DNA of 64,000 bases from Diplonema papillatum (Eukaryota > Euglenozoa > Diplonemea > Diplonemida > Diplonemidae), in contig JAPJBO010000095.1 of assembly GCA_030068145.1 (NCBI GenBank), positions 1 through 64,000 on the forward strand, in the 5' to 3' direction. Shown here piece by piece: positions 49,601-58,600 of the stretch (its first letter is position 1; every line of letters starts with the position of its first letter). A program made the position numbers and the translations under genes. The notes under the pieces are model-generated. The model did no database searches. It was given only the letters and a program-made list of their open reading frames with translations, and was not told where the DNA came from.

Positions 49601-52600
49601 ACTTTCTTAGCGCTATTTCTTCTTTGCATCTTCAATCCCTTGGCACGCATCCATCTCTCCAGTTCCTTAATTTGCGTCGGCACTCGGCTAACGTCGCAGT
49701 GTCGGGTGTCTCGTCCCCTCGTGCCCACTGCAACCGGAGTGGACCGAATGGGGCCCTCTTCGCAGCTTTCGGGGTCCCTCCAGAGCTACTGGCCCGCAGG
49801 TCAACAGAATCCACGTGACACGGAATGCGTTTCGTCGTCGGCTGAGTCGCCCGTTCACAGAAAGTCGTCTGTGTCGCTGATGTCGCCGACGATCCGACCC
49901 GAAAACGTCCGAATCAGTGTTCTTCAGCAGGGGACTTTAAAATACCGGTTTATCGGTTTGACAAACCGAATAAACCGGTTTGAGTTTTTGAGGGGAAAAA
50001 AAAAAATCTTATAGACCGATTTCAAAGTTTTACCACCTTCACTGTGTAGTAGTACTATAGTAGTAATGAACGTACCTGCCTGTAATAGCGTACAAATAAG
50101 CCCTCAAAAAACAGCTTAACCTAAAAAGGGGGAAAAACGGGGAGTGGGGGGGAGTGGGGGGCTCATCATGAAGCTGGTGTTTCTTTACGTCTCCGCCTTT
50201 TTGTCATTTCTTATTGCAACCTTTTGTTCTGAAAGAAAAATGTGCTTTTCTGACCAACACAGTGCTTCTTTTTGCTTCCTTCATGTGGATCATGGAAACC
50301 GAGAGTGCCTAGAGTGCGGAAAACTCCACACAGAGTGCAGAAAGTAGCCCGCTCGTGATGCAGCACCGCATGCAAGTGTGATACACCGACCTACATAACC
50401 AAACCGGTTTTTTGGCTCAAACCGGGTTTTTGGCTCGGACCCCAAACTTTTAAAGTCCCCTGTTCTTCAGTGTGTTCTCCAAAAAGTAAGAAATAGTGTC
50501 TCGTTCAAACATTTCCCGACCAATACTGGGTTTGGGGTATAGTGACACAAATTGTCAACGCCGCGGGATATTGTGATGCTATACCCTCCAGAACCCGTAT
50601 TCTGAAGCTAACCCCTCCCTCTTCTGGCATCGCCACCTTTTTGCCTGGGGGAGGGGAGAAAATAGTGCGCAGGATACAAGCCACCCTGGGATGCTCCTCA
50701 AAAACCGGAGTAGTTCTGAGACCTGCGGGCGTAAAAATAAAAAATGGACCCCACCCCATGGCTTCCGATGCTTTTGGGCTCAAATTTAATTCACATGCGG
50801 AACGTGCGGAAAAGGTCCAAAAAGGTGAAAAAAAAACTTTTCCGAGTTTCATGCAAGAGGGGGTACAAGCTCTAGAAAAGGGTCCAGGGTGTGCCTGGTA
50901 GGGAGAGTATGCCCCAACTTGCCATATTTGGGTCGCCAAGTCCACATCAGCATCATATTCGCTGATCCTTTGCGGGCTTCGTAGTTTTGTGTTGGCTTGG
51001 TGGCACGGGATCGTTGCGGACCACCTCCTGCAAGAAGACGAAGGTAGTTTTGTAGAGTGCAAGTTCGCTTGGATCCGGGGTTTTATAGTCTCCGGGTGAC
51101 CGTAGTCATAAGTTCCTTTAAGGTATATATGTATGTTTGTATATTGGTACGATGCCAAAAGGGGGGGGGGGGTCGTTGTATAATGGTTTAGCTTGAAGGG
51201 TGTTGGAAAGGTTGAAAAAGGTTTTGGGGGTCACCGTCGGTTTGTGTTTTTCTTTTTTTCTGTATATTTTTTTTGGGGGGTAATTATTTTTTCGGGGGTT
51301 CGCGTAACCCTTCTTTTCCGGAAGATAACGTTATCTTTTCTTTTCTCTCTGGCGCTCTTTTTCTCTCTATCTCTCTCTTTGGCTAGCAAAGCGACTATTG
51401 CGACCGACACCACGACCACACCCGTAATGAATGTGATCAAGGGCCCCCCACGTTCTACATGTTGAGCAGGGGTTGCCATGTAGCCCGTACCGGTCTAAGC
51501 CTTCATTGCAGCTTCCATAAGCACCCCCGTTGGGACGGGTCCGACGGTCCGTTAGTCATCAGCGACATCGGGCGGGAAAAAGTAAATAAAAAGAAAGGGG
51601 AAAAATGGGGGTGTGGGTGGATAAGCTCGTGGTAGGTTGTTCGGAAATAAGTACAACCTCAAACTACGCCTAGCACAGGGCCAGGCGGCATATACGTGCC
51701 TTCATCCTCTCATGTTAGTGTGCGTTCACTCGTACAGACACTTCGAGTTTTTCCCGTTAGTCAGGGTAAACGGGTGCGGAGTGAAATATAGACCAGCCAG
51801 CAATCAAGAATCCGATGAGGCTCAAACGACGCGGATCAGAATCTCACACCCGCGAGGTGGCAACGTCTCTCATGCGCGCGGAGTCCCCTCAGACCTTGGA
51901 ACGTCTGGCCATCCTTCGTGCATTCGACGGAGCAGTGTTGACATCGCAGCACCGGGGAACCTGTTAACTGCTGTTCAAACAACTGACCATGCGGTGTCAG
52001 ACATTGGGAGTCCGGCAAGGGCGGGCAGGGTGGCGAATTACCAAAGGGGCAGAAGGAGTCAGGTGATCCTTCCGACTGCCGGCTCATCAAATTACCGGCT
52101 GAACCTGGGGGTGCAGGCAAGTCGGGTAGCCGATCCTGAGTGGGAAGCACCATGGAGGGTGACGGGGCACGGACAGTCATGTCGTGGGCATTCCGGGGGA
52201 TCCGGACAAAGGCCGCGAGGTAAACGTCACCCCACGGAATGTCGTCGACAGAGGTGACGTGCAGGTCGTCGAAGAGGATCCACCCCGTGTCTTGCGCAAC
52301 GTACGTGACGTAGTGCCCGCTAGCCGTATCCTCCCCCATGTGCACCACGACGGCCGCGAGGCGTAGCAGATGGTCCGGCGGTCCGAAGAAGGGGGGCAGT
52401 TTCACGTCATTCTGGCGCCTGGCACCGTTTCTCGTGTAGATGCCAAACTGCATCAGAACACATTCAGCTGTCAGACGGAGATCCATGCTTTCAACCACCG
52501 TACCTACAGCCTTGCAGTCGCATACTCTCTCCGGATTCACAAACCCGTGCACGTGGAGAGAGTCTTCCAGCTTCCTTCCGCAAGGAATTTGCAAACATTG

Positions 52601-55600: not shown

Positions 55601-58600
55601 GAGGTGCTGCAACTGCCTACGGATGCCGAAGAATCTACCCCGTCCCTGGTTGATCCGTATCTCTTCGCCATCCACGTGAACCCACGGCTCCCCACGCTCG
55701 CGTGAAGCTCCTTGGGCGTCCCGTTCGTTGCCCGGTGCCTTTGTGAACGATGGTGCAGTGCGGGGCTTTTTCCTCCGTCTGTTCAAATCGCTGGCTGTCC
55801 TCACCGTGTTGAACATCGGCTGCAGCATCGCGATGAACGCCATCTCTATCGGCTCCGACACCCTGTCGAACGAACTCCCGTCGGAGTAAAACGCACCAGG
55901 GATGTCGTAGAGCACGAAAGCGTACGGCGGGGAAGGGAGGTTCTGTAAGTGACGCTTGAACTGGTCCTGTTTGCTGTTCCTGCCAGACCAGTGTTTGGCG
56001 ACCCTTTCCTGCATCGTCTTGCCTGTCTTGCCGATATATAACAGGTTAGCATGCGAGTCCACGAGTCCATAGATGAGACCCGAAGCCTTGTAGTTGCTCG
56101 GGTTCTCCGGCTGCTGGAGCTTGAGCGTCGCGTATGTGTGTGCAAGCTTCCTCCCGTATCTTCTCAGGAAGGGGGGGGGGGGGGGGGGGGTTTGGGCGGA
56201 AAAATCCCCGCATAGTTCACCAGGGTCTGACGGGTACTGAGGCCCCATACCCTTCCTAAAACATCATTCTGCGTTCAAATACGCCCTCAGAAGCCTCCGG
56301 AGAGCCTTCTATGATGTCCCAAATGCGATTTTGTGGGTTTTTAGGGGGTCCCCCCGTCTGCTGGCCGTAAACCGCCATAGTAGAAACATATGCAACCTGA
56401 AGCTGGGTCGCTTCTCTGTGCAAGATCCCAGCCCAAACACACGTTTTCGGCGTTCTCTAGCACTCTCCAGGCGCATTCGACCCTCGGGCTTCGTGGTTTC
56501 TTTCACTCACAGGTGTTCCGGGACGTGCAAAGATAAGGAGAATGGCCCCCTGCATTGGGGACAGACCGAACTACGCCCTGCCTGTCTATACAGGCTTTGG
56601 GGTCAAATTGCACCGGCTTTGGCGCCACATCCACCGTTTCGGGCTTCGGTTGTGCTGCTTTGGGGTCCATTAAGAACTCTGGTCTGATTTGCGGGACGCT
56701 TTCCTCGGTTTTGGCGCCCACTTTCACTGTTCTAAGGCCTGTTCAGGCTTCTACCTGCATCATGTTATGCTATTCTGGTGATTCTGCAAGGCTTGGTGAA
56801 CGAAGTAGGACAAGCGTTAAGTAACAGGCGATCATCAGCCGTTCTCAATCGTCGTCGAAGCGGTTGACTACGACGCGTTCACTTCATGATTTTGAAGCAG
56901 GCTTCACCGCTTTCAGGGCAGGCTTTCAGAGCTTTCCTGGCAATGTCTTCCCTTCTGGCACCTTTCTCACCCATGGCTGCAAAGTGCTTCTCGCTGGATG
57001 ACTTTGCACAGGCGGCACATGACCCGAGGGATGTGTGGCAAGCTCCTGTGCAGTGAGCTTGGTCAGACAAACTGTGTGGCGCACACACCCGCCATGGTCG
57101 GCAGTATCACCTGGGCCACAGTTTGAGTCCTGTTCCGAGACCCGCTCACGGTGAAGTGGCGCCTACTGGGTCGCTTCCTCTCCAGCTTCGGCGCAAAGTC
57201 TTCACCACTGGATGCACTTTGAACGGTGAAAGTGGGCACCAAAACCGAGCAAAGCGTCCCGCAAATCAGACCAGAGTTCTTAGTGGATCCCAAAGCAGCA
57301 CAAACGAGACCAAAACGGTGCACATGGCGCCAAGGCGGCGCAATTCGACCCCAAAGCCTGTATAGACAGGCAGGGCGTGGTACGGTCTGTAGGGTCCATT
57401 CGCCTTGTTTTTGCACACCCCGGAACACCTGTAAGCGAGATAATTTATGAAGTCCGAGGGTCGAATGCACCTGGAGAATGATAGAGAACGCCGAAAACGT
57501 GTGTTTAGGCCGAGATTTTGCTCCGAGGAGCGACCCAGCATCAGGTTGCATATGTGTCTTCTATGGCGGTTTACGGCCAGCAGACGGGGGGACCCCCTAA
57601 AAACCCACAAAATCGCATTTGGGACATCATAGAAGGCTCTCCGGAGGCTTCTGAGGGCGTATTTGAACGCAGAATGATGTTTTAGGAAGGGTATGGGGCC
57701 TCAGTACCCGTCAGACCCTGGTGAACTATGCGGGGATTTTTCCGCCCAAACCCCCCCCCCCCTTTTGGCATCGACTCATATATATTCTGCCTATTGCCGA
57801 CTATTCGACTTACTTTAGCGCGCGCTCTTCTTTCCTATGTGCTTTGCCAAGTCCATGGCTCTTGTGACCGACACCGAACCCACCCTTCGGACATCCCGTC
57901 CAAGGTCTGGACGGAAATCCCGACTGCGACTAACCAATGAGTAGCTGGTTGACCTTACACACATGTGAGTGCCAATTTTAATACATGCGGAAACACATGC
58001 GGAAAACACGTGCGGAAACACGTACGGAATTCCGCACGTACGGAAAATCACAATTTTATTCACGTGCGGAATTCCGTACGTTCCGCATGCGGAACGCAAG
58101 GCCTGCCCCACCCGGGTTCTTGGCGACTTCTTACCGACTTTCTACCGGGGTCGGGATCACACCAAATACTTCCTTCTTTCTCGTTGCTGAGCTAGCATCT
58201 TATTAACCGCCAAAATAAGCATACCAACGAGAGCCGTAGAGCGGAACGTGCCGACTTCTTCCGAATTGCGTACAATCCGCGGCAACTCCGACGATTTCAT
58301 ACCAAACAAGGCACAAAGTGATGGGTCCCACATCCGCTTGTTGATATCCATCAGGTACGTTCTACTGGCGTTGCAGACGCTGATGCAATGATTCCCCGTG
58401 AAATTCCACAGGAGCCATGTGTCCACAGTGCCAACAAGTACAGAGCCCTGCTCAATGCCTCGCTTCACAGCAGGCACGTTTTCCATAAGCCACGCAAGTT
58501 TGAAAGCCGTGAAGTAAGGCGACACAGGCAGCCCGGTCACTTTTCGAAAAGCGTCTCTGCCGCCATGCTTTTCAGAAAAGCGGTTTACGAGTTGCTGTGA

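Follow-up and report, generated by a model that had tools for sequence, protein, structure and literature searches.

The window analysed here, a stretch of 64,000 nucleotides from the single-celled marine flagellate Diplonema papillatum (Discoba, Euglenozoa, Diplonemea; contig JAPJBO010000095.1, positions 1 to 64,000), carries a 5'-truncated retroelement whose protein is fused to a ubiquitin-specific protease (USP). The element is almost certainly a member of a recently active, Chlamys-like family of Penelope-like retrotransposons with an N-terminal nuclease, in which a complete USP occupies the linker between the reverse transcriptase (RT) and a C-terminal zinc finger. The RT-USP junction is spanned in all 32 scored loci of the genome, the window included, and the USP is a conserved island flanked by fast-evolving linkers and under purifying selection. 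Its intact state from copy to copy suggests that the element uses the host ubiquitin system to move or survive. The features of the window copy, all on the minus strand, are as follows.

51173..56170, minus: Penelope-like element of subfamily A, truncated at its 5' end; it covers positions 2898-7901 of the tandem unit (7901 bp)
56171..56190, minus: poly-C tract (20), the 5' truncation junction and target tract
51161..51172, minus: poly-C tract (12) at the 3' end
51836..56248, minus: open reading frame (ORF) as given, 1470 amino acids; residues 1-26 are flank and target tract
55739..56080, minus: GIY-YIG endonuclease region, residues 57-170 (PF01541 and alignment with the GIY-YIG of other Penelope-like proteins)
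55166..55174, minus: CxC motif C359-P-C361, aligning with the CxC of relatives with an N-terminal GIY-YIG
53279..54958, minus: RT region, residues 431-990 (profile search, alignment, telomerase fold, ratio of nonsynonymous to synonymous substitution rates (dN/dS) 0.074)
53153..53200, minus: basic stretch resembling a bipartite nuclear localisation signal (read by eye), residues 1017-1032, just ahead of the USP
52193..53071, minus: USP domain, residues 1060-1352 (PF00443, fold match, dN/dS 0.228)
51839..51958, minus: C-terminal C2HC zinc finger, C1436, C1439, H1459 and C1463; the relatives P0020, P0022, P0023 and P0024, which lack the USP, terminate in this finger too

Domains of the fused protein

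The ORF at 51836-56248 is open throughout, with zero stops. An earlier note, made from the letters of this DNA alone, had read in this one frame a GIY-YIG nuclease, an RT, a USP with Cys box, zinc pairs and His box, and a C2H2 finger, all belonging to a Penelope-like element. The nuclease, the RT and the USP with its Cys and His boxes stand as read, the finger is of the C2HC type, and the element's coding sequence begins only at residue 27. Residues 1-26 are flanking DNA and the 20-base poly-C tract, translated as a proline run, and residues 1-23 recur at 57693-57761, inside an inverted repeat. Judged by domain offset, 55 residues are missing at the start of the window copy when it is compared with P0001, a protein of 1499 amino acids.

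The profile searches that the note had proposed recover the nuclease and the protease from Pfam (hmmscan, window ORF). GIY-YIG (PF01541) matches residues 57-100 with an E-value of 1.4e-4, exactly at the cut-off, as is the case for subfamily A; subfamily C scores above it. The LIY (58-60) and YIG (71-73) motifs are presumably those of the nuclease, and E135 is probably its catalytic residue. The RT has no Pfam match even at E 10 in P0001, P0003 (subfamily C) or P0008 (subfamily B), and NCBIfam returned nothing useful for the element proteins. The RT is too diverged for Pfam and was therefore identified by profile search, alignment and fold. A profile of the three subfamilies found 27 proteins at E ≤0.01 (7999 candidates scored), some of which combine RVT_1 with an N-terminal GIY-YIG; RT motifs A (DFTTMYD, D643), B (at residue 745) and C (FIDD, D792-D793) align with them. 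In the AlphaFold2 model of nuclease and RT (mean predicted local distance difference test score (pLDDT) 72.2), the 12 best matches in the PDB are all telomerase, a fold expected for Penelope RTs.

UCH (PF00443) matches residues 1071-1336 with an E-value of 1.2e-20. The catalytic residues are C1079, H1312 and D1327/D1328; Cys, His and Asp are intact in 19 of 19 loci, and the catalytic boxes are the best conserved parts of the domain. USPs (peptidase C19) typically have two C-x2-C zinc pairs. As to the zinc pairs of the earlier reading, the first is a regular C-x2-C (C1203, C1206), and the second is a C-x-C (C1243 and C1245, in the CDC of residues 1243-1245). The predicted model of the domain matches the solved USPs USP12/USP46, USP1, USP2 and USP21. 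The solved USPs listed among the fold matches share 16-25% identity with the element's USP, and none is clearly the closest family. A search for USP-like domains (7996 candidates scored) found seven unnamed proteins at 22-42% identity and a piece of the element itself. Giant viruses also carry USPs with a similar fold, a likeness that shows no descent. The domain is likely a catalytically active deubiquitinase.

Copies in the genome and insertion into poly-C tracts

A search of the species' own genome (32 of 1894 candidates scored, 271 Mb) gave 35 match rows at 32 loci or more, window included; such copy counts are lower bounds. By identity, 23 loci lie at 99-100%, two (C17 and C890) at 95-96%, and seven at 84-86%. 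Three loci (C23, C890 and C116) are each in two pieces, and one stop occurs in each of two match rows. P0003, with 66% identity over 98% of the query, defines the further subfamily C; A, B and C all have the fused order in frame. The published D. papillatum assembly measures about 280 Mb, and the word Penelope does not occur in the main text of the genome paper (PMC10161547). One scan of viral contigs revealed no relative of the element.

The element protein is annotated in D. papillatum as "putative ubiquitin carboxyl-terminal hydrolase 16". Judged by their sequences, several shorter gene models (P0002, P0004-P0007 and P0009) seem to be this element again, either interrupted by predicted introns or attached to exons from elsewhere. 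The annotation of these public models needs care: they appear to splice across parts of the element, some seemingly removing the USP, and one example appears to join it to a model for ribosomal RNA-processing protein 12.

The anatomy of the element was derived from 19 loci (L009-L026 and the window), which share a single fixed 3' end and have many 5' starts, at positions 1, 449, 577, 639, 1413, 1767, 1985, 2012, 2017, 2095, 2295, 2513, 2655, 2898, 3030 and 3035 of the tandem unit. For L012, L013, L022 and L024, with 84-91% identity to the reference, and for L023 and L025, with 94-96%, the 5' breakpoints come from alignment with a copy of subfamily A and could be displaced by a few bases. Direct 3'-to-5' tandem junctions occur in L010 and L019 and also in L020, which belongs to the 86% subfamily; in L018 a piece of the 5' end lies inverted beyond the 3' end. 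The traits of Penelope-like elements are present: a telomerase-related RT, a GIY-YIG in the same ORF, and tandem copies (pseudo-long terminal repeats, pseudo-LTRs) with inverted pieces.

A run of 6-38 C follows all 18 of the 3' ends examined; L011 was dropped from this count because it repeats the tandem of L010. At the 5' side, 15 junctions were examined, with the tandem or complex loci L010, L011, L019 and L020 left out. A run of at least eight C or G is found at 8 of these 15, against 0.7% of 25-base windows in the 64-kb window and 0.95% across all loci. A tail belonging to the element could account for the C run at the 3' end, but not for one at the point of 5' truncation; poly-C tracts are therefore the sites of insertion. 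Searches for a hammerhead ribozyme gave no match in the window (gathering threshold), nor in five of the 19 loci with copies (E up to 1). The RNA-family search gave partial 28S ribosomal RNA pieces upstream of the element in L015 and weak sub-threshold matches elsewhere. In L013, positions 850-1365, upstream of a subfamily B copy, encode a diverged C-terminal half of a USP (UCH, E 5.6e-12), perhaps a host USP exon.

The window copy is 99.82-100% identical in DNA to copies L002-L008, and the identity breaks at both poly-C tracts. It sits inside a glycerol kinase gene whose introns are large (window 47.0-59.7 kb, minus strand), in sense orientation and in the intron between the exons located within 58157-58729 and 47985-48527. 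FGGY-domain ORFs of this gene are at 59238-59747 and 58157-58729; further exons, recognised by glycerol kinase motifs, presumably lie within 47985-48527, 47606-47965 and 47004-47303. The spliced gene around the copy is thus not a USP gene. The earlier note had named two outcomes that would undo the fusion: no second copy with the same RT-USP junction, and a USP that belongs to a separate spliced gene. The former is answered by the 32 of 32 loci with the same order and junction. As for the latter, the RT-USP frame is continuous in near-identical copies with different flanks, and the USP appears to be part of the element and not of a spliced gene.

Selection on the USP

Selection was measured as dN/dS by the Nei-Gojobori method for two pairs, subfamily A against B and A against the C17 copy. 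Between A and B, the ratio is 0.16 for the GIY-YIG, 0.074 for the RT, 0.37 for the RT-USP linker, 0.228 for the USP (confidence interval 0.157-0.344), 0.57 for the linker between USP and zinc finger, and 0.14 for the finger. Between A and C17, it is 0.156 for the GIY-YIG, 0.133 for the RT, 0.63 for the RT-USP linker and 0.298 (0.135-0.659) for the USP; with 4 to 16 changes, the small segments of this pair do not bear interpretation. In protein identity, A and C share 77% in the GIY-YIG, 75% in the RT, 59% in the USP, 25% and 28% in the linkers, and 47% in the finger.

Relatives without the USP

Four unnamed ENA proteins, P0020, P0022, P0023 and P0024, probably environmental and on contigs of 1.4-2.5 kb, have an RT 50-59% identical to that of the element, followed by a Ser/Thr-rich linker and then the same C2HC finger. 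The USP is absent from all four. They are fragments without N-termini, so that the nuclease region lies outside them. The tree includes P0020, P0022 and P0024 but not P0023; these three group with the diplonemid rows with support of 100/100. The gene-model fragment P0018 and the rows of subfamilies A, B and C from D. papillatum form one clade (98/96). The simplest history would be a gain of the USP in the RT-finger linker before the split of subfamilies A, B and C; alternatively, the relatives may have lost it.

How the USP may serve the element

Anatomy, selection and fold are observed here, and the activity, substrate and place of action of the USP are inferred as follows. An ancestor would have acquired a complete USP in the disordered linker between the RT and the C-terminal zinc finger. 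The nuclease would nick a poly-C/poly-G tract, and the RT would copy the element RNA from that nick. The USP, being on the same protein, would remove ubiquitin in cis from the element's RT particle and thereby stop its proteasomal loss; an alternative substrate in cis would be chromatin, or proteins of DNA repair, where the tract has been nicked. The earlier note had proposed that a deubiquitinase might protect the RT complex or might act on ubiquitinated chromatin at the target, and the present results favour neither idea over the other. Taken as a whole, a USP acting in cis for the element is the explanation that we favour and regard as probable. The chance that the particle or the target site of the element, and not something else, is what it acts on is a little less than even. 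In a more specific and rather doubtful version, the USP would itself take part in retrotransposition. Replication forks would stall at poly-C/poly-G tracts, where the nuclease would nick; the tethered deubiquitinase would then clear ubiquitin from proteins of the fork or of DNA repair, or from nucleosomes, and thus allow target-primed reverse transcription to finish. Were this true, the element would be changing the ubiquitin state of the very site at which it inserts.

Several observations weigh against this reading. The GIY-YIG of subfamily B falls below the Pfam cut-off (20.1 against 22.6), the second zinc pair of the USP is altered, and the USP model is moderate (mean pLDDT 64.6, predicted template modelling score (pTM) 0.64). 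With a dN/dS of 0.228, the USP changes at roughly three times the pace of the RT (0.074), so that it is constrained, but less strictly. Between A and C17, the linker before the finger has a dN/dS of 0.08 and the finger one of 1.0, on a thin basis of 5 and 4 changes, and subfamily C was compared with A as protein only. The deeper forks of the tree are unsupported (35/16), leaving the diplonemid clade without a placement relative to the other Penelope-like rows, and 7 of the 15 5' junctions have no C/G run of eight.

The USP could also act in trans against the host, lowering a ubiquitin-dependent restriction such as host E3 turnover of the element protein or ubiquitin-based silencing. Its complete and constrained state, the giant-virus USPs of similar fold, and the RNA interference components reported for the host in the accessible text of its genome paper (PMC10161547) would fit this rather unlikely alternative; against it, RT and USP share a single frame at every one of the 32 scored loci, and the ORF has no release site of the types LRGG, RGG or [LI]xGG, the only ones searched. 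The lack of such sites, together with the existence of close relatives without the domain, also speaks against a self-processing protease that cuts the element's own polyprotein, as the proteases of other retroelements are generally known to do, and makes that idea hardly credible. If the domain were instead a module that binds ubiquitin or a ubiquitin-like protein (e.g. SUMO), with weak or absent ubiquitin peptidase activity, the C-x-C form of the second zinc pair would be explained, as would the lack of a clearly closest USP family (16-25% to the listed solved USPs, 22-42% to the unnamed proteins). The retention of Cys, His and Asp in all 19 loci and the strong conservation of the catalytic boxes make this quite improbable.

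Penelope elements can capture host DNA, according to the accessible text of one source (PMC3846280), and a host USP coding sequence riding along unselected might show a dN/dS above that of the RT, as is the case here. Such passive cargo is very improbable, as the USP ratio is well under 1 (0.157-0.344) and the linkers beside the USP decay while the USP, in frame in A, B and C, does not. The annotation as a ubiquitin carboxyl-terminal hydrolase would suit a multi-copy host gene or an assembly artefact, a reading that the fixed 3' end, variable 5' truncation, tandems, poly-C targets and diverged subfamilies under selection reduce to almost nothing. On this evidence, the host gene family, the passive cargo and the polyprotein protease were rejected.

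Ulp1 and OTU proteases recur in several unrelated transposons, and the accessible text of one study proposes a role of the ubiquitin pathway in transposition (PMC2836005). Such a role is hard to test, and the present family is young and multi-copy, with intact USP, RT and nuclease in one protein, USP-less close relatives as natural controls, a simple poly-C target and a free-living host. It would also place a Penelope element with an N-terminal nuclease in Euglenozoa.

Other features of the window

A different USP is represented at 28685-29752 (minus strand) by its His-box half (UCH, E 1.2e-4, just below the Pfam cut-off), with 37% identity over 43 amino acids to the element's USP. The frame has a long Pro/Thr/Glu-rich tail and sits between two copies of a short repeat; a sequence search of the PDB with this piece gave nothing at E up to 0.1. 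It is followed on the same strand, at 26552-28528, by an ORF without a Pfam match; by eye, it looks like the C-terminal portion of a non-LTR RT, with YLDD, and also contains a zinc knuckle and motifs of a restriction-like endonuclease. Short repeats flank the pieces. A second USP-bearing retroelement here is possible but unproven, and the DNA examined holds no second full copy of this arrangement.

The remaining features of the window are listed below; the repeat arrays were found by self-comparison and in translations.

18003..20528, plus: transposase ORF, 841 amino acids, DDE_Tnp_1_7 (E 3.4e-66), which we take to be of the piggyBac type
39992..42689, minus: overlapping ORFs, by eye DIRS-type (RT/RNase H part and tyrosine recombinase), with no convincing Pfam match
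43862..44830, minus: exon of the tubulin-tyrosine ligase family (E 3.8e-15)
14737..15745 and 7133..7801: repeat arrays
30800..31400: repeat array encoding QHQQVSTSKSAPAS-like repeats in several frames

Comparison with known systems

The Chlamys and Naiad elements, reportedly described by Craig et al. in 2021, form a clade of Penelope-like elements defined by an N-terminal GIY-YIG, a CxC motif between endonuclease and RT, an insertion-in-fingers domain in the RT, a bias for insertion into microsatellites and the lack of a hammerhead ribozyme. The present element has the GIY-YIG ahead of the RT, the CxC between them, the tandem and inverted arrangements and the microsatellite bias, with no hammerhead found. 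Within the clade, Chlamys is distinguished from Naiad by a nuclease without CCHH cysteines. Cysteines are absent from the nuclease of the window copy, B (P0008) and C (P0003), and the only one in that of P0001 falls outside the GIY-YIG interval; P0026, P0029, P0031, P0036 and P0039 have a C-x2-C in the nuclease. In its lack of zinc cysteines, the nuclease resembles that of Chlamys. The earlier assignment to the Chlamys type agrees with the anatomy; no named Chlamys sequence is among the profile hits, and the RT tree, with its unsupported deep forks, gives no placement relative to one. To our knowledge, no member of the Chlamys/Naiad clade has a USP. The element differs from the clade by the USP and C2HC finger after the RT, the euglenozoan host and the poly-C target. 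Chlamys elements are also reported from the brown alga Ectocarpus in the accessible text of PMC12477816.

The nearest relatives, P0020, P0022, P0023 and P0024, share the RT and the C2HC finger, and their Ser/Thr-rich linker takes the place of the USP. Canonical Penelope elements share the telomerase-like RT, the GIY-YIG and the tandem copies acting as pseudo-LTRs, but have a C-terminal nuclease and, in the Anolis element, a hammerhead; the accessible parts of these sources mention no USP (PMC11167929, PMC3846280). Penelope GIY-YIG and RT act in one protein, for which target-primed reverse transcription has been proposed, and the Anolis element is active in vitro, as far as the accessible text of PMC11167929 goes. 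The cellular enzymes USP12/USP46, USP1, USP2 and USP21 have the same fold and catalytic residues as the element's USP, but share only about 20% identity with it and are host enzymes without RT or nuclease.

Among the literature matches listed, which cover subscription journals in part and have the main Chlamys/Naiad paper outside them, none describes a USP as part of a Penelope element, and none reports such elements from diplonemids. A Drosophila virilis paper with both Penelope and ubiquitin among its terms names a host gene, not such an element. In the accessible text of PMC4640811, NeSL and Utopia-1_TSP likewise fuse a retrotransposon protein to a protease of the type acting on ubiquitin-like modifiers, but theirs is an N-terminal, Ulp1-like cysteine protease, combined with a non-LTR RT and a restriction-like endonuclease. 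According to a review of giant transposons, Burro has ubiquitin-related domains and Helentrons have an OTU-like protease (PMC6431247). Ginger1, Mutator and Helitron proteins with OTU or Ulp1 also carry a deubiquitinase-type domain on a transposon protein, and a Trichomonas transposase_11 protein with Peptidase C19 has one of the same peptidase family as the element's USP; all of these are DNA transposons with different enzymes and a different mechanism, according to the accessible text of PMC2836005. The Ulp1, OTU and C19 cases are precedents for the idea of such a fusion, not for this element.

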